A DNA stretch of 64,000 nucleotides, from IMG/VR virus record IMGVR_UViG_3300023115_001125, positions 53,516 through 117,515 of that record. One strand, written 5' to 3'. The position numbers and the translations under genes are program-made. How positions within the stretch are numbered: position 1 is the first letter of the stretch; each line of letters begins with the position of its first letter. The stretch comes from a virus. Under the pieces are notes generated by a model. That model did no database searches, was not told where the DNA came from, and saw only the letters and a list, made by a program, of their open reading frames with translations. Positions 4,061 to 43,665 of this stretch are shown piece after piece.

Positions 4061-5080
4061 TTAGATAGATTCGTACAATTTAATGCTGGCTAAGTTTTTG
4101 GCTTTAGATTCTACCATAATATCTGCACGATCACGGAATGAAAGAGCCCATTCGTTAACTGCCGAATTCCACATAAAGTCGGAGTGAGCACGTAGTTTCT
4201 GCTTCTTATAACCGTTCATAAGCAGATATTCCATATCAGGCATTTCATCTGTAGGCCATTCTGTAAGTAGATCTTCACGTGATACTGAGTAGTGAATAAC
4301 AGGACGCACACCACGCCAACTATCAATTATGCGATCAAATCTACGATCGGTGGGTTGAATGTATTCTCCACTAGCGACCCAGTGGTGGTGTATGTCAAGA
4401 ACGAGTGCGACGTGGTTGGCAAGTTCCAGGCTGGCGTCGATGCCCCAGGACATTTCGTCATTTTCAATTGTAATACAGTTTCGTGCTTCTGGAGACAGTC
4501 TTGGAAGGACGTCGATGATACCGGCTGGACCTTGTCTGCCTGAGATGTGGACGTTACACTTGAAGTCTTGCCAATTGTTACCGTAACCCATCCACCTGGC
4601 GATGTCAATGTGATACTCAAATTCTTCTATGCTCCGTTCAACGATATCAGGATTATCTGACGCAAGTACAGTAAACTGACCAGGATGCATAGAAAGCCTA
4701 ACATCCAGTTCACGAGCCTTTGCGCCGACGTGAGCCAAGTTCCTTTCACAATATTGTCGTACATCAGGCTTGCGCCAGAAGTAAGACCAAGTAGGCTCAG
4801 TATAAACAGGTAGGACGTCACTTCCCAACCTAACCATACGTAATTCATTCGGTAGTCCTCCTACATAGTTAACAAGGTTCCAATAACTTTGTATGTTATG
4901 AACCATAATGTCCCATAGACGCTGTTCAGCAACATCACGTGTTTGCCTATTCAACCAAGCAACAGTTGTTGCTTTTGTATTTAACGGTCGTTGAATCTCC
5001 TCTAGCAGTTTCTTCTTCTGCGTTTGATCAGGATGCATATATTTGCAGGCAAAGCCTATACGTTTCGTAGTCGATTCCAT
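4061..5080 (-). CDS. uvsE: UV DNA damage endonuclease (UvdE/UvsE family)
   Basis: The 339-residue product matches the full UvsE/UVDE family, a TIM-barrel metal-dependent endonuclease that nicks DNA 5' to UV photoproducts. Recognisable blocks are RIGFACKY at the N-terminus, RLGSDVLP near residue 105, LSMHPGQF near 155, CNVHISGRQG, TIENDEMSW and LDIHHHW. These supply the His, Glu and Asp metal ligands of the family. Its 3' neighbours are small membrane and zinc-ribbon genes. Its start overlaps the end of the HAD gene upstream by 25 bases. A light-independent repair gene suits a surface-ocean phage. Confidence 0.95.
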   Translation of the reverse strand: MESTTKRIGFACKYMHPDQTQKKKLLEEIQRPLNTKATTVAWLNRQTRDVAEQRLWDIMVHNIQSYWNLVNYVGGLPNELRMVRLGSDVLPVYTEPTWSYFWRKPDVRQYCERNLAHVGAKARELDVRLSMHPGQFTVLASDNPDIVERSIEEFEYHIDIARWMGYGNNWQDFKCNVHISGRQGPAGIIDVLPRLSPEARNCITIENDEMSWGIDASLELANHVALVLDIHHHWVASGEYIQPTDRRFDRIIDSWRGVRPVIHYSVSREDLLTEWPTDEMPDMEYLLMNGYKKQKLRAHSDFMWNSAVNEWALSFRDRADIMVESKAKNLASIKLYESI

Positions 5081-5757
5081 GTGTCTTCCCAGTTTTTAAT
5101 ATTATAGCAAATTCCTAGATCGTTGTCAATGATTTGTTTTTTCAAAGGATAGTCATTTCCTTCAGGATACATAGCATCACCAAAAAAGTGTAGTGTATCA
5201 TTTGGACTAAAATCTCTTAAGATTTGTGATTTGTCATTGCCTTTTGGAAAAACATCAATGCCTGTTTCACCGCCAACCTTAGCACTTATCTCTGGGAACA
5301 TAGTTTCGAACGCTCTTGCTATTCTATCTCGTTCGTTTATCCTTAAATCATGCTCTACATATAGTTTACGTTCACCTACAGTAGCATTACGTCCTACTAC
5401 ACTAAAATTACACATACCAGGTCTATGCTCAAAGTGTAGTCCTGTACGTAGTGGGAATTCGCTTTCGTTCATGCATTGTGTTAAAAACTGTTCTGCTATT
5501 TCAGGTAATTTCCAATCTGTTGTATAAACATTAGTTCCTGCTTCGTAAACATCACTGCCTGAACAGTTGTAAACTTTTTTAACATTTTCGCAAATGTCAG
5601 AACCAATTTGTTCAACAGTTTTTTCGTAATCACTGCCTGTTACAAGATATACATTATTTGAATATGTAAATTCTAAAAACCAACGTTGAAACTCAACGTT
5701 CATTTTTTGACGACTCGGAGTCAGAGTACCGTCCACGTCAAATATGAATCTTTCCAT
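5056..5757 (-). CDS. HAD-superfamily phosphatase resembling eukaryotic-type phosphomannomutase
   Basis: The N-terminal FDVDGTLTPSR carries the HAD nucleophile and acid/base aspartates (residues 7 and 9). The C-terminal block FFGDAMYPEGNDYP matches the conserved GD..PGGND loop of PMM-type enzymes, and a middle segment GIDVFPKGNDKSQ fits motif III with its lysine. At 233 residues it is near the family's usual length of about 245. It may act on a sugar phosphate and feed the glycosyltransferase-type genes nearby. The substrate cannot be read from sequence. Confidence 0.82.
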   Translation of the reverse strand: MERFIFDVDGTLTPSRQKMNVEFQRWFLEFTYSNNVYLVTGSDYEKTVEQIGSDICENVKKVYNCSGSDVYEAGTNVYTTDWKLPEIAEQFLTQCMNESEFPLRTGLHFEHRPGMCNFSVVGRNATVGERKLYVEHDLRINERDRIARAFETMFPEISAKVGGETGIDVFPKGNDKSQILRDFSPNDTLHFFGDAMYPEGNDYPLKKQIIDNDLGICYNIKNWEDTWNRLRNV

Positions 5758-6573: not shown

Positions 6574-6602
6574 ATTATAACTAACTTTGTTTGAAAAGTC
6601 AA
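6574..6602 (-). promoter_or_regulatory. Sigma70-like promoter before the glucosaminidase gene
   Basis: On the minus strand, TTGACT and TATAAT are separated by 17 bases, followed directly by the gene start region. Confidence 0.8.
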
Positions 6603-16870: not shown

Positions 16871-18184
16871 TTATAATTTTTCACCTACATCAAAGCCGCG
16901 AAATGTTTTGAATCTTGGAAAACGCAAACTGTAAGTACCGTCCTGATTTTGTGTAATTGCGTCTGCTCGTACTTCTACAATATTGCCAATAAGTGTGCTA
17001 CGATCATTCCAAAAATTATCACGATCGCTGTCGCTAAACCCACTCCCAACATTAACTTTGATATCTCTTCCGTCATCAAGTCCTTCACAAACGAGTGCAC
17101 CAAGTTTACCAACATTCCGTCCTGTTCCTTCTTCGACATCTTTTACCTCCAATGATACCTCAATAAATGGTTTCATCTTTAACCAACTATGAGATCGTTT
17201 ACATTCATAAGGAGCATCAACGTCCTTAATCATAACTCCTTCATAACCACCGTCTACAGCCGCTTTATTTAGGTCTACAAAGCGTTTTTCGCCTTCAGGA
17301 GTACTTAGGTCTACCTCTTCCCAGTCCAACGCTTGTACGTGCTTTAAAACGCTACTATGCTGGTCTACCCAAGCCTTAACTGCTTGGCTTCTAAACGATT
17401 GTGGTTTGTCCCAGCCACCTTCCAAAAACTTATCCAAAGGACACATATCAAATAAATGGAGAACTGCGTCTGTGGCATTGCCTCCACTCTTTCTGTGTAC
17501 CTGCTTCATTAAGTCTTGGAAGTTAGCACTCATTACTTCTCCGTCTAGCACAAGATCGTATGGTGCAGGGTTATCCTTTAATACTGTTTCAAGTTCTTCA
17601 ATGATGTGTCCAAAGTTGTGAAACTGTTTACCATTACGGCTAAACGTTTCAACTTTACCATTCTTGCATACTGCAAGAACCCTAACACCATCTAGTTTGA
17701 TTTCGATCTGTTTCTTGCCAACCATTTTCTTTTCATGCTTGGCAGAGTCGTGTGCGAGTTGACAAGTAAACACAGGAACACAACCTGGTACTATTTTGTT
17801 TACTGTCTTTTCACTTACTCCACAACGTAAATCTTTGATAAGAATTCTACGATACCAACCATTCCATTGTTCTGCTGTTGCAACACTCATAGACAATTCA
17901 ATAGCATCACGTGCCGCATGACCGGTTAGTTCTCGATTTTGTAATTTTTCAGCAAGTTCTTTAAACACATTCCAAGCAAGTCCTTGTGCTGATAATACTT
18001 CGTTCTCTGCTTTTTCTGGAACTTGTTTCACACCAAATGTTACAAGTGCGTCAAGACACATACGTACACCATCAAAGAACTCTGGTAGTCCTTCATCGTG
18101 TGCTTTTTGTAGGATTGCTTCTTTGCCCAAACGTGAGTTGTCTGCTTCTAGTTGAGCGATAATATCTTGTGGTTGTGTTCTCAT
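16871..18184 (-). CDS. 30: ATP-dependent DNA ligase (T4 gp30 type)
   Basis: 437 residues. Motif I is IEIKLDGVRV, where the lysine accepts AMP. Then come FSRNGKQF (Ia), DLVLDGEVM (III), GYEGVMIKD (IV) and SWLKMKPF (V), in the order expected for covalent nucleotidyltransferases. An OB-fold follows, ending with FPRFKTFRG. The N-terminal ~140 residues form a DNA-binding domain as in T4 ligase. It seals nicks in replication and repair. It has its own canonical promoter. Confidence 0.95.
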   Translation of the reverse strand: MRTQPQDIIAQLEADNSRLGKEAILQKAHDEGLPEFFDGVRMCLDALVTFGVKQVPEKAENEVLSAQGLAWNVFKELAEKLQNRELTGHAARDAIELSMSVATAEQWNGWYRRILIKDLRCGVSEKTVNKIVPGCVPVFTCQLAHDSAKHEKKMVGKKQIEIKLDGVRVLAVCKNGKVETFSRNGKQFHNFGHIIEELETVLKDNPAPYDLVLDGEVMSANFQDLMKQVHRKSGGNATDAVLHLFDMCPLDKFLEGGWDKPQSFRSQAVKAWVDQHSSVLKHVQALDWEEVDLSTPEGEKRFVDLNKAAVDGGYEGVMIKDVDAPYECKRSHSWLKMKPFIEVSLEVKDVEEGTGRNVGKLGALVCEGLDDGRDIKVNVGSGFSDSDRDNFWNDRSTLIGNIVEVRADAITQNQDGTYSLRFPRFKTFRGFDVGEKL

Positions 18185-18217: not shown

Positions 18218-18246
18218 ATTATATATTAAACACATCTAAAAGTCAA
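18218..18246 (-). promoter_or_regulatory. Sigma70-like promoter before DNA ligase
   Basis: TTGACT, 17-base spacer, TATAAT on the minus strand, one of the best matches in the window. Confidence 0.82.
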
Positions 18247-18847: not shown

Positions 18848-18924
18848 TGGCGCACTCGAAGAGATTCGAACTCCTGGCCTCCAGTTCCGCAAACTGGCGT
18901 TCTATCCAACTGAACTACGAGTGC
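18848..18924 (-). tRNA. tRNA-Arg, anticodon GCG
   Basis: A full cloverleaf with encoded CCA: acceptor GCACTCG/CGAGTGC, D stem GTTC/GAAC, anticodon stem CCAGT/ACTGG around loop TTGCGGA, and T loop TTCGAAT. The anticodon GCG reads CGC and, by wobble, CGU. Bacteria normally use ACG (read as ICG) for this box, so GCG is unusual. The D loop keeps the adenine at position 20 used for arginine identity. Confidence 0.9.
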
Positions 18925-18930
18925 GTAATT

Positions 18931-18962
18931 ATTATACTACAATATTCTTTGGTGAAAGTCAA
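18931..18962 (-). promoter_or_regulatory. Promoter for tRNA-Arg
   Basis: TTGACT is followed after 17 bases by TAGTAT, and after 20 bases by TATAAT, directly before the tRNA. Confidence 0.65.
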
Positions 18963-18964
18963 GA

Positions 18965-18993
18965 GAAAAAAATAGGCGACATAAAGCCGCCTA
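18965..18993 (-). terminator. Intrinsic terminator after the small HTH-like gene
   Basis: An 8-bp stem (TAGGCGGC / GTCGCCTA with one G-T pair), 5-base loop and a run of seven T on the minus strand. Confidence 0.9.
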
Positions 18994-19023
18994 CTTTCTT
19001 TAAGATTGAAATAAGGATTTAGA

Positions 19024-19266
19024 TTATACTAAACCTTTTGCCATTGCTTTGTAACCAGCGGCTACAACTGCTCTTGACGGAGTACCTAATCTGTACTTCT
19101 TAACACCTTTTTTAGTGTTTAGGTACACAGGGTATCCTGCAAATCTTAGTGATTGAATAACTGCTTGTGGGTTACCAGCACCAAATTTAGAAGCAATTTG
19201 CTCTGAAGTTAGTTCTTTACCGTTTTGTAAAGCAGTTAATACGCTATCTTGAATAGTAGTTTTCAT
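19024..19266 (-). CDS. Small winged-helix-like DNA-binding protein
   Basis: 80 residues: a first helix (SVLTALQNGK), then LTSEQIASKFGAGNPQAVIQSLRFAG, which reads as a helix-turn-helix, and a wing (YPVYLNTKKGVKKYRLG). It stands alone as a transcription unit with its own promoter, a strong AAGGAG site and a strong terminator. That layout suggests high, independent expression of a small regulator. Confidence 0.75.
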   Translation of the reverse strand: MKTTIQDSVLTALQNGKELTSEQIASKFGAGNPQAVIQSLRFAGYPVYLNTKKGVKKYRLGTPSRAVVAAGYKAMAKGLV

Positions 19267-19330: not shown

Positions 19331-19359
19331 ATAATACACTAAAAATTTAATAAAGTCAA
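19331..19359 (-). promoter_or_regulatory. Sigma70-like promoter for the winged-helix gene
   Basis: TTGACT, 17-base spacer, TATTAT on the minus strand. Confidence 0.78.
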
Positions 19360-21671: not shown

Positions 21672-21745
21672 TGGTGCCCAGTGACAGAATCGAACTGCCA
21701 ATAGATGATTACAAATCAACTGTTATACCATTTAACTAACCGGGC
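21672..21745 (-). tRNA. tRNA-Thr, anticodon TGT
   Basis: Acceptor GCCCGGT/ACTGGGC, D stem GTTA/TAAC, anticodon loop TTTGTAA flanked by GTTGA/TCATC with one mismatch, T loop TTCGATT, and encoded CCA. The first ten bases overlap the end of the upstream protein gene. Confidence 0.9.
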
Positions 21746-22583: not shown

Positions 22584-22769
22584 TTATCTCCTTTTTAAAT
22601 TATTATATTGTAAGTAGATCAAAAAGTCAACTATTAAAAAATTAAAAAACAATCCTGTAGTAGTAAGCATCACTCCAAAAAGCATAGGGATAATAATTAG
22701 GAACAATCCTAGTTTAATAAGATAATCAAAGGCTAATTCAACCGGAACTGTCCAAAACAACCAAGTCAT
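22584..22769 (-). CDS. Two-helix membrane protein, 61 residues
   Basis: MTWLFWTVPVELAFDYLI followed by LGLFLIIIPMLFGVMLTTTG and FFNFLIVDFLIYLQY, with a basic LKRR end. It starts inside the stop of the acetyltransferase-like gene (ATGA overlap), which supports translation. Possible membrane remodelling or exclusion role, not resolvable here. Confidence 0.65.
   Translation of the reverse strand: MTWLFWTVPVELAFDYLIKLGLFLIIIPMLFGVMLTTTGLFFNFLIVDFLIYLQYNNLKRR
22602..22630 (-). promoter_or_regulatory. Sigma70-like promoter
   Basis: TTGACT, 17-base spacer, TATAAT; drives the small beta-protein run and lies inside the two-helix gene. Confidence 0.78.
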
Positions 22770-28232: not shown

Positions 28233-28922
28233 TATTTTTGGAAATAATGCGTTAGTGCAGAATTCGTCAACATCTGCTTCATTAAGTCCTAATGACTTCA
28301 TAACTCTAGGTGTATGTGGATTTTGTTGCTGGTTATGGCAGTAGTAGTTTTGAGCACCTGCTGTAATATCTACACTAGCATTGCCTGTATACTCAGGAAC
28401 ACTATCAAACCATACACGCAGGTTTTCTAAAGCAAGATCTACAATAGCAGTTGCTTCTTCTTCTGTGCGAACATTACCTGCGGCAACCATTCCTGGTGAA
28501 AAGATGTTCTGTGCCCATTCGGGTAGTTCACGTTGTTTACTAGGAATAAAATCTTTAACAGCATCTAAGTACCATTCTACAAGAGGATGTTCTTCACCGC
28601 CTGAACTTGCTGAAAAATCATGAAATGCACCTGTCATTTTATTCTTACCTGCAATAACATCAAAGCCGTAAATAGGACCATCATTTGATAACACAGGAAA
28701 ACAACATACGTGCATCATCCACAGTCCGTGCGAGTCTCTTGCGTCTACAACATCAATGTGTGCTCTGCGTACATGATCATTTGCCCATACTCTGTTGATC
28801 CAACCGTTCTCAGGCTGATTAAATTTGTTTAATCCTTTTTCTTCTATTTCAGTGGCTTTCTCATCAAAGATGTTTAATATTTCATTTTGGCATTCAATTA
28901 GTTTATCCCAAATGACACTCAT
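28227..28922 (-). CDS. pcyX: Ferredoxin-dependent bilin reductase (PcyA/PcyX type)
   Basis: 231 residues from an ATG that overlaps the halogenase stop (ATGA). MHVCCFPVLSNDGPIYGFDV and AGKNKMTGAFHDFSAS are the FDBR core. His71 and Asp88 have the same 17-residue spacing as PcyA His88/Asp105, the proton-donor pair for biliverdin reduction. The C-terminus AGAQNYYCHNQQQNPHTPRV matches PcyA's YC..QQ.N motif. It probably reduces biliverdin to a phycobilin using host or phage ferredoxin. PebS and PcyX relatives are known from marine phages; PcyX was found in non-cyanobacterial viral contigs. The PcyX label is tentative. Confidence 0.9.
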   Translation of the reverse strand: MSVIWDKLIECQNEILNIFDEKATEIEEKGLNKFNQPENGWINRVWANDHVRRAHIDVVDARDSHGLWMMHVCCFPVLSNDGPIYGFDVIAGKNKMTGAFHDFSASSGGEEHPLVEWYLDAVKDFIPSKQRELPEWAQNIFSPGMVAAGNVRTEEEATAIVDLALENLRVWFDSVPEYTGNASVDITAGAQNYYCHNQQQNPHTPRVMKSLGLNEADVDEFCTNALFPKIA

Positions 28923-30439
28923 GATCTGTTTCCCCAATCTCTATTATACATACCAGGTGTTGTCCAATCAACATCGTCTTTGTTCATCTTTTCTAAAAGT
29001 TCCATGGCTTTGTCTTTTTCTAATCCTGGTGATGCTGTTTTAATTCCTGTTGTGTTAAGCCATAGTTTCCAATTCATCTCAGCAAAGATTTCTGTATTAC
29101 GGGGGAAAAACTGATAGTCATCGTCCCACATAACTGTAGGTGTATAGTTATGTTTAAAGTTTGTTGCAATCTCTGTAAGTTTATCTGTTTCCTTAAAGTT
29201 TTTATAAACGTGTTCCCAAAACTTACCTTTACGTGGATTATTAAAATAATGTAGTGCTACAAAGTTCATAGTATCTTCATAGACTGCTGTCATATCTTCG
29301 TTAAACTTTAATCTATCTTCTTCAGTATAACTTAGTTTTTCTAAAACTTTTAGGCCACTAGCACCAATTGTAAGTAATGCAAGTCCTGTTGATTCTAACG
29401 GTTCAATAAATCCACTAGCAAGTCCTACACTAAAACAGTTGCCTCTCCAGTTGTTTGCATTATATTCTGGCTTGAAAGGAACATGATTAAACTGTCCTGT
29501 TCTTAGTCTGTGTTCACCCCAATGCTGTACAAAGAAATCTTCTGCTTCTTGTTTAGTGGTAAGTTCACTGTTGTAACATAGTCCACTACCAATACGATCT
29601 TTAACAGGTGTTTTCCAAATCCAACCTAGGTCACACGCCTGTGCAGTAACGTATGGAAGTTGTACTTCATCTTCTGTTTCGTAATCTATTTGACTTGCTA
29701 CTGCGGCATTAGTAAACAGCATATGACTTCTGTCAATCCATTTACTGTCGGGCAATGCATTTGAAAGTAAACGTTTAAAGCCAGTACAGTCTACAAAAAA
29801 ATCTGCTGTAACTTTTGTACCGTCATCTAATGTTACATATTCAATAACACCATCAGTAACCTTTGGAGCATCAATGTGTTTTTGAATATGTGTTAGTCTT
29901 GGATACTTCTTATTAAGATAATCAGATAAGAAGTTTGCTAGTTTAACAGCATCTAAATGATATCCTACATGAGCAGTACCACCGCAAGGTGTTGTGTTAT
30001 TTGGAATCTTTTTATCTACAACAGAAACTTTATGCCAAGCAATATATTTTTCTAATTCAACCTCATTAATGCCGCCGTCACGAGCAAGGTCAATGCTATC
30101 AAGTGTTCCGTGTTCTGTATGTGTTACAGGAAAAAAGAATGGTTGCCAAATGTTAATGCCGTCGCCCTTCCAGTTTGGAAAGTAAGTCCCTGTTTTAATA
30201 GTTGCGTCACAAGCCTTTGTCCATAGTTCTCTAGGAATATTACAATCGTCTAAAAAATGATCAAACCCTAAAATAGTTGCTTCACCTACGCCAACAATAG
30301 GAACATTAGGACTTTCAATAAGTGTGATTTGTGTTTCGGGTAAGTTTGATAATGCATAAGCGGCCGTAAGCCAACCAGCACTTCCTCCACCTACAATACA
30401 AATGGACCTAGCACGGCTACGACCTACTACTTCAGTCAT
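28919..30439 (-). CDS. FAD-dependent halogenase (tryptophan-halogenase family)
   Basis: 506 residues. The FAD loop IVGGGSAGWLTAAYAL is at 14-30, and VGVGEATILGFDHFL and CDLGWIWKTPVKDRIG match the GEAT and WxWxIP signatures. FIEPLESTGLALLTIG is the substrate and flavin-tunnel motif. Lys82, in the segment before FPNW, sits where the catalytic lysine of PrnA-type enzymes is found. These enzymes use FADH2, O2 and halide to halogenate indoles or other aromatics; a cyanophage relative, VirX1, can iodinate. Flanking heme oxygenase and bilin reductase overlap it by 8 and 4 bases. Confidence 0.93.
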   Translation of the reverse strand: MTEVVGRSRARSICIVGGGSAGWLTAAYALSNLPETQITLIESPNVPIVGVGEATILGFDHFLDDCNIPRELWTKACDATIKTGTYFPNWKGDGINIWQPFFFPVTHTEHGTLDSIDLARDGGINEVELEKYIAWHKVSVVDKKIPNNTTPCGGTAHVGYHLDAVKLANFLSDYLNKKYPRLTHIQKHIDAPKVTDGVIEYVTLDDGTKVTADFFVDCTGFKRLLSNALPDSKWIDRSHMLFTNAAVASQIDYETEDEVQLPYVTAQACDLGWIWKTPVKDRIGSGLCYNSELTTKQEAEDFFVQHWGEHRLRTGQFNHVPFKPEYNANNWRGNCFSVGLASGFIEPLESTGLALLTIGASGLKVLEKLSYTEEDRLKFNEDMTAVYEDTMNFVALHYFNNPRKGKFWEHVYKNFKETDKLTEIATNFKHNYTPTVMWDDDYQFFPRNTEIFAEMNWKLWLNTTGIKTASPGLEKDKAMELLEKMNKDDVDWTTPGMYNRDWGNRS

Positions 30440-33868: not shown

Positions 33869-34429
33869 TTACCGATTTATAAAATAAAACTGATTGATAC
33901 TATATCTACCACTTCCTATACACCTAGATACACTATGTTGTAAAAAACTTGGAAATAATATAGTTGTATTATTTTTTAATGTAGGCTTATATCCAAAGTC
34001 TGTAAACTCTAAATCTCCACCTTCAAATGCTTTTGGTTCTTTCCATAAAACTGTCACGGCAGATAATGTGCCATGATCAGCATGATGATCATATACTGCT
34101 CCGTTTCCATAATAGTTTACCTGTGTTACATCATGGTTAGTGTAAGGTAAGTATCCTGCAAACGGATTGTCTTTTAGTTGCTCTTGCAAATAAAATAGTT
34201 TCCTATTAAAGTTCAAGACGTAACTTTTTTCTCTGTTATCTTTATAGTGTGTATCCATGTGAATAGCACACATTTTATCATTTGCTCTAGGGTCGCCAGT
34301 TTCTGCTGACGGTCTAAAGTATGCGTCTAGTGAATTAATCTCTACAAGGATTTCTTTTAGTTCCCACGGTTCGTAAAAATCGTAGATGATACTATGATGA
34401 AAAGGTTCATGTAGATTCTTAACAAGCAC
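33869..34429 (-). CDS. 2OG-Fe(II) oxygenase (P4Hc-like)
   Basis: 186 residues. YDHHADHGTLSAVTVLW provides H-x-D (HAD), FEGGDLEFTDFGY the central strand, LQHSVSRCIG the distal histidine, and GRYSINQFYFINR the 2OG arginine. ILFPSFLQHSV is typical of the family. Its start overlaps the GMP reductase stop by one base. Substrate unknown. Confidence 0.9.
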   Translation of the reverse strand: MLVKNLHEPFHHSIIYDFYEPWELKEILVEINSLDAYFRPSAETGDPRANDKMCAIHMDTHYKDNREKSYVLNFNRKLFYLQEQLKDNPFAGYLPYTNHDVTQVNYYGNGAVYDHHADHGTLSAVTVLWKEPKAFEGGDLEFTDFGYKPTLKNNTTILFPSFLQHSVSRCIGSGRYSINQFYFINR

Positions 34430-35580
34430 TAGTTACCTATTGTGTTTTTTTCGTATACAGTATTGTGTGTTTGTGTACAACGTACAAATGTAGCACATCT
34501 ACTTAGATGTTTAAGTCTTATTGCGCCAGCATAAGTACAAGCAGAACGCAACCCACCCAAGATATCTTGAACAGTAGTAGCCACTGCTCCTCGGTAAGGC
34601 ACAAGAATTTCTCTTCCTTCACTGCTTCTATACTCCTTAAGGCCTCCAAAGTGTTTGTCGTTCGCGGCCTTCGAACTCATTCCGTAGAATTGTACAAACT
34701 TTTTTTCTTCAATTTTATTTTGTATACCACCTTGATCAAAAGTAACTTCATCTGTAGTATACATTTTAGTAATTACTTCTCCACCACCTTCATCGTGCCC
34801 GGCGAGCATTCCTCCAAGCATAACAAAATCTGCTCCTGCGGCAAAAGCCTTTGCAACATCTCCAGGCGATACGCATCCTCCATCGGCAATAATGTGTCCA
34901 CCGAGACCGTGTGCGGCGTCGGCACATTCAATGACTGCGGAGAGTTGTGGGAATCCAACCCCAGTTTGAATCCTAGTAGTACACACGCTCCCGGGACCAA
35001 TACCCACCTTAACAATATCCGCTCCACTTAAAATTAACTCCTCTGTCATTTCTCCGGTAACTACATTACCTGCAATAATTACAATATGTGGATATAAACG
35101 TCTAAACTCTGCAACAAAGTCACGGAAACGATTTGAATATCCGTTAGCAACATCGATACAAACATAACGTAACTTATCACCTGTTTGTTCATATACTTGA
35201 CGAAACTTTTCATGATCGTGATCAGTAATACCAATGCTCATTGCTACATACTGGGTACGTTCATCGTATTCACTATCAAAGTAACATACTAGATCATTTA
35301 CACTATATGTCTTTTTAAGACAGGTAAACATTTTTACTTCAGCAAGTTTGTCTGCAACTTCAAATGTTCCTACACCATCCATGTTAGCGGCCATAATAGG
35401 AATACCCCGCCAGTGTCTATGATCAGGTCGGATTTGCTCCATGCTCATATCTTGTGGCTTCCAGTTACGCCAAGTAAATCCTCTTTCAAGATCTACTTCT
35501 TTACGACTTCCTAAAGTTGAACGTTTAGGACGTAGTAATACATCTTTGTAGTCAAGTTTAATGTCTTGGTCGATTCGCAC
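34429..35580 (-). CDS. guaC: GMP reductase
   Basis: The GTG start, six bases after GGAG, gives 383 residues. VGIGPGSVCTTRIQTGVGFP contains the catalytic cysteine loop, GLGGHIIADGGCVSPGDVAK the phosphate site, and QFYGMSSKAANDKHFGGL with VPYRGAV and DILGGLRSACTYAGA match GuaC rather than IMP dehydrogenase; no CBS insertion is seen. It converts GMP to IMP with NADPH, which could rebalance purines for AT-rich phage DNA. It overlaps the upstream oxygenase gene by 23 bases. Confidence 0.92.
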   Translation of the reverse strand: MRIDQDIKLDYKDVLLRPKRSTLGSRKEVDLERGFTWRNWKPQDMSMEQIRPDHRHWRGIPIMAANMDGVGTFEVADKLAEVKMFTCLKKTYSVNDLVCYFDSEYDERTQYVAMSIGITDHDHEKFRQVYEQTGDKLRYVCIDVANGYSNRFRDFVAEFRRLYPHIVIIAGNVVTGEMTEELILSGADIVKVGIGPGSVCTTRIQTGVGFPQLSAVIECADAAHGLGGHIIADGGCVSPGDVAKAFAAGADFVMLGGMLAGHDEGGGEVITKMYTTDEVTFDQGGIQNKIEEKKFVQFYGMSSKAANDKHFGGLKEYRSSEGREILVPYRGAVATTVQDILGGLRSACTYAGAIRLKHLSRCATFVRCTQTHNTVYEKNTIGN

Positions 35581-36178
35581 TTTTAACTCCGTAGTTAAAC
35601 GATACTGCAATACGTTCGTTGTTGCTTTTGTTTTGTGTTACTTCATGTTTTGCCCAGCCAGGAAATATTGCTACCATGCCAGGTTTAGGCGGATATGTTG
35701 CCATTGTGCTTGTGATAGTATTATACTGACTTAGATTATCAGGGATATAATACTGTGCATCATCAGGACGATAAAATCTTAAATCACCCATATTCTCATC
35801 TGGTACATCAATGTAGAATACTCCACTTAGTAATGCATCTTGATGATTGTGTAACGTGTGATATGCTCCCGGTCCATTAATGTTAATCCAAAAGTTTTGA
35901 AATTCAACTTCTGGTAATCCGCAGACTTTAGTTACATACGCCATAGCCTCATCTAATTCTGTTAAAAATTTTCTAAGTACTGGAACGTACTGTGGATCTA
36001 CTAGATCAACATTTTCAATACTACGACTGTGCCACCCACCTTGATTGCTGTTACCATGCAAGTCTGGTTCTTTAGTTCTCCAGTCATGTGCAATATGTTT
36101 CATAGCATTTCTGTCTACCTTTTCTAAATAGCCGGCAAACACAAATTGCGGAAACCATAAGTCTGCTTTAAATTCCAT
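35558..36178 (-). CDS. 2OG-Fe(II) oxygenase (TIGR02466-like)
   Basis: 206 residues. HTLHNHQDALLSGVFYID gives the first ligands (H-x-H/Q-D), LRFYRPDDAQY the mid strand, and AIFPGWAKHEVTQN with RIAVSFNYGVK the distal histidine and arginine. It belongs to the same family as the 8-9.6 kb pair. The bS21 gene ends where this one begins. Substrate unknown. Confidence 0.88.
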   Translation of the reverse strand: MEFKADLWFPQFVFAGYLEKVDRNAMKHIAHDWRTKEPDLHGNSNQGGWHSRSIENVDLVDPQYVPVLRKFLTELDEAMAYVTKVCGLPEVEFQNFWININGPGAYHTLHNHQDALLSGVFYIDVPDENMGDLRFYRPDDAQYYIPDNLSQYNTITSTMATYPPKPGMVAIFPGWAKHEVTQNKSNNERIAVSFNYGVKSANRPRH

Positions 36179-40460: not shown

Positions 40461-40489
40461 ATTGTAGTATATAGATGACAAAAAGTCAA
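40461..40489 (-). promoter_or_regulatory. Promoter for the basic protein
   Basis: TTGACT, 17-base spacer, TACAAT on the minus strand. Confidence 0.65.
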
Positions 40490-43102: not shown

Positions 43103-43289
43103 CGTCTTTTTTCTTTAGGCTCCAATTACCATTGTCTAATTCTTCCCAGATAAGTGTATCGCCAATGTCCCAACCTACTTGGGCTAATGCTTCTGGGGGG
43201 AGTTCTAAATATAATTCTTTTGTCTTGCCATCTTCTTGAACTTGAACAGTCCAAGAATTTTCACCGGTCTGTATTGGATTTCGTATCAT
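43095..43289 (-). CDS. AbrB/MazE-like small protein
   Basis: The ATG following AAAGG gives 64 residues. SWTVQVQEDGKTKELYLELP then LAQVGWDIGDTLIWEELDNG and WSLKKK has the swapped-hairpin look of AbrB/SpoVT proteins (the G-W-x-x-G-D-x-L/I motif). Such proteins bind DNA as dimers or act as antitoxins; similar small proteins are widespread in cyanophages. No toxin partner is next to it. First gene in its run, right after the tmRNA terminator. Confidence 0.65.
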   Translation of the reverse strand: MIRNPIQTGENSWTVQVQEDGKTKELYLELPPEALAQVGWDIGDTLIWEELDNGNWSLKKKDDV

Positions 43290-43308
43290 TGCTGTCACCT
43301 TTGATAAT

Positions 43309-43630
43309 TAAAAAGTGCAACTTTTCTGTTGCTAGGGAAGTTGCCACCCCCGAGTGATTATGCCGCTAGGGCAAAATCCTCAGAAAGACGAACGTCTTTT
43401 TGCTCACCGAAGTTTACAAAAGAAACGTTGTCCAATGCTTTATCGTTTGCATCTATAACGTTTGCTTGATTTACGGTCATCGCCTACCGGTAACTCCACG
43501 TTCTCTAGTACATCAGTCGATCCCGATCACCCCCTCAAAGCACACTCTGTGAATGTGTTTTAAGTGAATGGTGGAGGTGGGGGGAATTGAACCCCCGTCC
43601 TGCCTGTGTTCGATTGGCTTCATCGTTACA
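43309..43630 (-). ncRNA. ssrA: Circularly permuted (two-piece) tmRNA
   Basis: On the minus strand the acceptor piece comes first: GGACGGGGGTTCAATTCCCC, ending CACCTCCACCA (3' end at base 43569). After a 34-base spacer with a small hairpin comes the coding piece, which starts GGGGGTGATCGGGATCGAC (5' end at 43534). GGGGGTG pairs with CACCTCC to form the tRNA-like acceptor. The tag frame ends LSEDFALAA-stop at 43358. Resume GCA candidates are at 43465 (35-residue tag, ANVIDANDK...) and 43450 (30 residues). A stem GCAACTT/AAGTTGC and TTTTT close the gene. Permuted tmRNA is typical of alphaproteobacteria, so it probably came from that host group. It rescues stalled ribosomes. Confidence 0.9.
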
Positions 43631-43636
43631 ATACTT

Positions 43637-43665
43637 ATTTAACTACATTTTAACGCACTTGTCAA
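43637..43665 (-). promoter_or_regulatory. Promoter for the tmRNA
   Basis: TTGACA, 17-base spacer, TTAAAT on the minus strand, placing transcription start near base 43630. Confidence 0.65.

Follow-up and report, generated by a model that had tools for sequence, protein, structure and literature searches.

The window, a 64,000-nucleotide (nt) stretch of viral DNA, corresponds to bases 53516-117515 of a virus record 117,515 bases long. The record holds genes for a DNA ligase, both ribonucleotide reductase subunits (including NrdA), a T4-like tail fibre and a T4-type DNA polymerase; the phage is T4-like and probably marine. No close cultured relative was found with two proteins searched, the ligase matches all lying below 60% identity; in a protein search with L361:5744-7300 the matches were likewise all less than 60% identical. 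The phage record contains four tRNAs (Arg, Thr, Gly and Trp), and ARAGORN places no tRNA-Arg(ACG) among them. The arginine tRNA and the features that bear on it are as follows.

16871..18184, minus strand: ATP-dependent DNA ligase, anchor gene of a tRNA-rich neighbourhood in relatives (PHROG 114, E 2e-99; synteny)
18848..18924, minus strand: tRNA-Arg(GCG), 77 nt including an encoded CCA (ARAGORN, Rfam RF00005, stem pairing)
18934..18962, minus strand: sigma70-like promoter, TTGACT-17-TAGTAT (sequence scan; motif enriched in the window)
18966..18998, minus strand: terminator-like hairpin plus T tract, separating the tRNA promoter from the upstream gene at 19024-19266 (fold)
21672..21745, minus strand: tRNA-Thr(TGT), upstream companion tRNA (tRNA search with ARAGORN and Rfam; synteny)
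43267-43663, minus strand: permuted tmRNA of alphaproteobacterial type, tag ANDKALDNVSFVNFGEQKDVRLSEDFALAA (ARAGORN; alphaproteobacterial model match)
6574-6602, 18218-18246, 18934-18962, 19331-19359, 22602-22630 and 40461-40489, minus strand: copies of the promoter motif TTGACTTT-N15-TANNAT (motif count)

In relatives that bear the ligase, the DNA upstream of its gene is rich in tRNAs, and a tRNA-Thr(TGT) also accompanies tRNA-Arg(GCG) in L081, L087 and L088. The model match of the tmRNA hints at an alphaproteobacterial host, which is a guess; tmRNAs like this one are found close to nrdA in several related contigs. Elsewhere in the window are a tryptophan halogenase-like protein (28919-30439, minus strand; Pfam PF04820, E 1.7e-89), a UV endonuclease UvdE beside a eukaryotic-type phosphomannomutase-like protein (4061-5757, minus strand) and a protein with an IMP dehydrogenase/GMP reductase domain (34429-35610, minus strand; Pfam PF00478). 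The T4 RNA ligase 1 family gave no match in the record, and its positive control gave no signal either, so this negative carries no weight.

The sequence-only reading had placed a tRNA-Arg with a GCG anticodon at 18848-18924, and ARAGORN returns exactly these coordinates, adding the minus strand. The RNA reads GCACTCG-TA-GTTC-AGTTGGATA-GAAC-G-CCAGT-TTGCGGA-ACTGG-AGGCC-AGGAG-TTCGAAT-CTCTT-CGAGTGC-G-CCA; all 21 of its 21 stem pairs are standard, and the cloverleaf without CCA scores 67.8 bits against RF00005 (E 1.3e-12). The anticodon loop is TTGCGGA (U32 U33 G34 C35 G36 G37 A38). Arginine tRNAs are recognized through A20, C35, G36 (or U36) and G or A at position 73, and A20, C35, G36 and G73 can all be read directly off the sequence. 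In the 142 genomes of an alphaproteobacterial class sample, tRNA-Arg(ACG) and tRNA-Arg(CCG) make up most of the nearest genes, at no more than 81% identity, and the 30 best genome loci comprise 28 tRNA-Arg genes and two tRNA-His genes, the latter at lower identity. We therefore reject an isotype other than arginine, one of two ways in which the original assignment might have failed. The other, a sequencing error at base 34, is rejected because the same tRNA stands on an independent, near-identical contig: L081/L164 (contig 3300023172_000031, from a different assembly) carries an identical tRNA-Arg(GCG) and a 100% identical ligase. L087/L215 has the same 77 bases, while its ligase is only 88% identical. 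The predicted minimum free energy fold of the unmodified RNA is not a cloverleaf and is no more stable than shuffled sequences, so it lends no support to function; such folds are common among tRNAs.

A strict pattern of the TTGCGGA loop with its flanks matched 82 viral contigs. Together, pattern matches and ligase loci yield 41 distinct tRNA-Arg(GCG) sequences; among the 40 that are 77 nt long, the acceptor, anticodon and T stems carry compensatory substitutions, and 37 keep all 21 pairs while the remainder keep 20 of 21. When the tRNA of the window was compared with a phage collection by blastn, only eight weak matches were returned, five on other isotypes (His, Ala, Pro twice and Thr) and three without a named gene. 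We found no literature report of tRNA-Arg(GCG) in phages, in a search that was thin on subscription papers. By these comparisons the tRNA is real, intact and conserved, and it is widespread in related environmental phages.

The gene also seems to have its own promoter. The -10 element ends 9 nt upstream of the tRNA, which puts the predicted transcript start at most a few nt from the mature 5' end. Six copies of the motif TTGACTTT-N15-TANNAT stand in the window against 0.07 expected, always on the main coding strand, and the five copies away from the tRNA stand upstream of open reading frames. By a statistic that was devised post hoc, from this locus and its relatives, and on contigs that are phylogenetically non-independent, a promoter -10 falls in a 4-12 nt slot before the tRNA in 25 of 40 distinct GCG tRNA upstreams, ending at a distance of 6-11 nt, against 0.65% of 50-mers drawn at random from these loci, and a promoter precedes 22 of 29 solitary or first-in-array GCG tRNAs versus 8 of 77 other phage tRNAs in such positions (Fisher p 1.5e-10). 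A promoter of its own thus appears to be usual for phage tRNA-Arg(GCG). The hairpin at 18966..18998 folds at -17.6 kcal/mol (z -6.4) and is kept in L081 and L087; it is absent from the list produced by a separate terminator scan of the window. By a simple rule, an upstream terminator-like hairpin is found at just 7 of 40 GCG tRNA upstreams, and the terminator part is therefore not general.

Ten ligase loci carry tRNA-Arg(GCG), each with the loop TTGCGGA, and five carry tRNA-Arg(ACG), each with the loop CTACGAA. Four of the five ACG genes lie in the same upstream neighbourhood; the fifth, in L125, lies 7 kb downstream. In the ligase tree L128 (GCG) and L145 (ACG) form a pair with support 86; both have the Arg tRNA at the same position of a Trp-Pro-Cys-Arg run, with an extra Ser tRNA in L128, and the tree rows that bear either form need three changes. 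Since relatives carry GCG or ACG in a like place, the lineage does not strictly require G34, and the G34 form is a recurrent alternative for which there is no fixed need.

We next consider what this tRNA may decode. Its anticodon is predicted to serve CGU and CGC, with CGA and CGG left to the host. Among the 34,589 codons of the record, arginine is written as CGU 464 times, CGC 58, CGA 108, CGG 16, AGA 643 and AGG 90, making CGU the commonest CGN codon of the phage and 34% of its arginine codons. Relatives show about equal arginine codon proportions whether the region seen holds GCG, ACG or neither. Lower CGA use would be expected in GCG phages because G34 cannot read CGA, and it is not seen (11.3% versus 10.5% of arginine codons). 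GCG and ACG phages are thus alike in arginine codon use, to which the sequence-only reading had looked through CGU and CGC counts; it bears no codon-level signature of tRNA-Arg(GCG) and does not explain which form is carried. The suggestion that a genomic G34 avoids TadA editing holds, as G34 needs none and the phage record contains no TadA match (the control was positive in 12 of 14 genomes).

We consider it probable that tRNA-Arg(GCG) is a functional, phage-encoded and independently transcribed decoder of CGU and CGC that secures the supply of CGU with no need for TadA editing. The sequence itself shows an intact cloverleaf, the arginine identity bases, an encoded CCA, purifying selection, covariation, and a dedicated promoter-like site preceded by a terminator-like hairpin. 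Host RNA polymerase would transcribe the gene alone, host RNases would trim the transcript and host ArgRS would charge it; once made, the tRNA would read CGC by Watson-Crick pairing and CGU by G:U wobble, and A-to-I editing by TadA would be dispensable. It could then raise or secure CGU supply when the CGN-decoding tRNA of the host is limiting, through low abundance, limiting editing or degradation. Against this account, besides the missing codon-level signature, most of the codons served are CGU, with which G34 pairs solely by wobble; a host tRNA-Arg(ICG) would already decode this codon.

How unusual the anticodon is depends on the bacteria considered. In the alphaproteobacterial class sample, the ACG pattern was found in 119 of 142 genomes, the CCG pattern in 41 of 58 and the GCG pattern in 2 of 289. 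In that sample, then, ACG is the usual reader of CGU and CGC and genomic G34 is rare, as had been proposed for bacteria at large; across bacteria, the rarity does not hold. A scan of GTDB genomes gave at least 118 loci with the GCG pattern, the matches listed including Spirochaetes, Chloroflexi, Patescibacteria, SAR324, Nitrospinota and others, plus archaea, and a GCG decoding strategy has been described in Borrelia, Campylobacter, Helicobacter, Treponema and Thermotoga as well as in some Mollicutes, and in the Mollicutes concerned GCG takes the place of ACG (PMC3711424). One of the two alphaproteobacterial matches, L364 on a short contig of genome G170, sits in a Ser-Arg(GCG)-Ser(CGA) run without an encoded CCA, and is possibly foreign to that genome, either contamination or a phage contig.

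The G34 loop of TTGCGGA type is the usual form in bacteria that use GCG, and the CTACGAA and CTACGGA loops of alphaproteobacterial tRNA-Arg(ACG) are two to three positions away from it. Origin by a simple A34-to-G change in a host tRNA-Arg(ACG) is unlikely because the loop also differs at position 32, and often at 37, and because single-step CTGCGAA loops are scarce (10 viral stretches, compared with the 82 that hold TTGCGGA, although the flank pattern was stricter for the latter).

These loop differences are also the starting point for a reading as counter-defence, in which tRNA-Arg(ICG) is cleaved or otherwise inactivated by the host or a toxin in the course of infection, while the phage tRNA escapes, so that CGN translation continues. 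The sequence-only reading had likewise suggested a host that modifies or destroys tRNA-Arg(ICG); this part of it gains no backing from the related phages that carry tRNA-Arg(ACG) instead, or from arginine codon use, in which GCG and ACG phages agree. Escape would rest on U32, G34 and G37 in the phage loop against C32, I34 and A or G37 in that of the host. A like hypothesis of tRNase evasion, which names colicin D as one of the tRNases, has been published for phage tRNAs generally (PMC10264068), and a stand-alone promoter would suit rescue amid shut-off. However, where relatives have a tRNA-Arg(ACG) in this neighbourhood, its loop is still the host-type CTACGAA, and TTGCGGA, being standard for its anticodon, need not be an escape mutation. 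We regard this possibility as unlikely.

Alternatively, the tRNA may be a passenger from, or a match to, a host that itself uses GCG, such as marine SAR324, in which case G34 would be the host's own reader of CGY codons. Several phyla commonly use GCG, and of the 39 distinct phage GCG tRNAs compared, 35 are nearer to cellular tRNA-Arg(GCG) than to the sampled alphaproteobacterial Arg tRNAs. The tRNA of the window ties at 58/73 between a SAR324 GCG tRNA (L247) and an alphaproteobacterial ACG tRNA, and the best-matching class shifts when loop positions are masked; for both reasons, the tRNA body alone leaves the origin ambiguous. Against a passenger or host match, the phage tmRNA fits the model of a class in which GCG is nearly absent and no cellular tRNA is near-identical (81% at best for the window tRNA), and conservation over many phages argues for selection rather than passage. 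We hold this explanation to be doubtful.

A broader proposal sees host tRNA-Arg(ICG), or the editing of it by TadA, as a target of attack in infection, and for that reason environmental phages would maintain a tRNA-Arg(GCG) with a promoter of its own, G34 giving an editing-independent and cleavage-resistant CGN backup; this strikes us as decidedly unlikely. That the gene is a remnant or neutral tRNA retained by chance would fit its frequent gain and loss in the clade (11 state changes among the 39 rows of the ligase tree), but is very improbable given the intact structure, the covariation, the identical copy in L087 and the dedicated promoter.

The favoured reading, a functional CGU/CGC decoder, makes tRNA-Arg(GCG) a variation on ordinary phage-encoded tRNAs, and a mildly interesting one, its novelty being an editing-free anticodon together with a dedicated promoter. 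Like the tRNAs of T4-like and other large phages, these are intact host-type genes with CCA, few per genome and varying between relatives; unlike them, they have the Arg anticodon GCG and frequently a stand-alone promoter. The anticodon, the TTGCGGA loop type and TadA-free reading of CGU and CGC are shared with cellular tRNA-Arg(GCG) of Pneumoniae-group Mollicutes, Borrelia, Treponema and Helicobacter (PMC3711424). The cellular tRNA, however, is part of its genome's own decoding set, accompanied in Mollicutes by UCG and loss of TadA (PMC3711424), whereas the phage tRNA comes as an additional copy, and the class to which the host probably belongs uses ACG. As in the phage tRNAs proposed to evade tRNases (PMC10264068), the anticodon loop differs from that of the host tRNA, but here it is standard for its anticodon.

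If phages do prefer a G34 tRNA-Arg where their hosts use an edited A34, this would offer a natural test of what phage tRNAs are for: whether they add to codon supply, get round modification bottlenecks or evade defences that destroy tRNAs. Ready comparisons would come from related phages such as L145 and L128, which have ACG and GCG respectively in the same neighbourhood.
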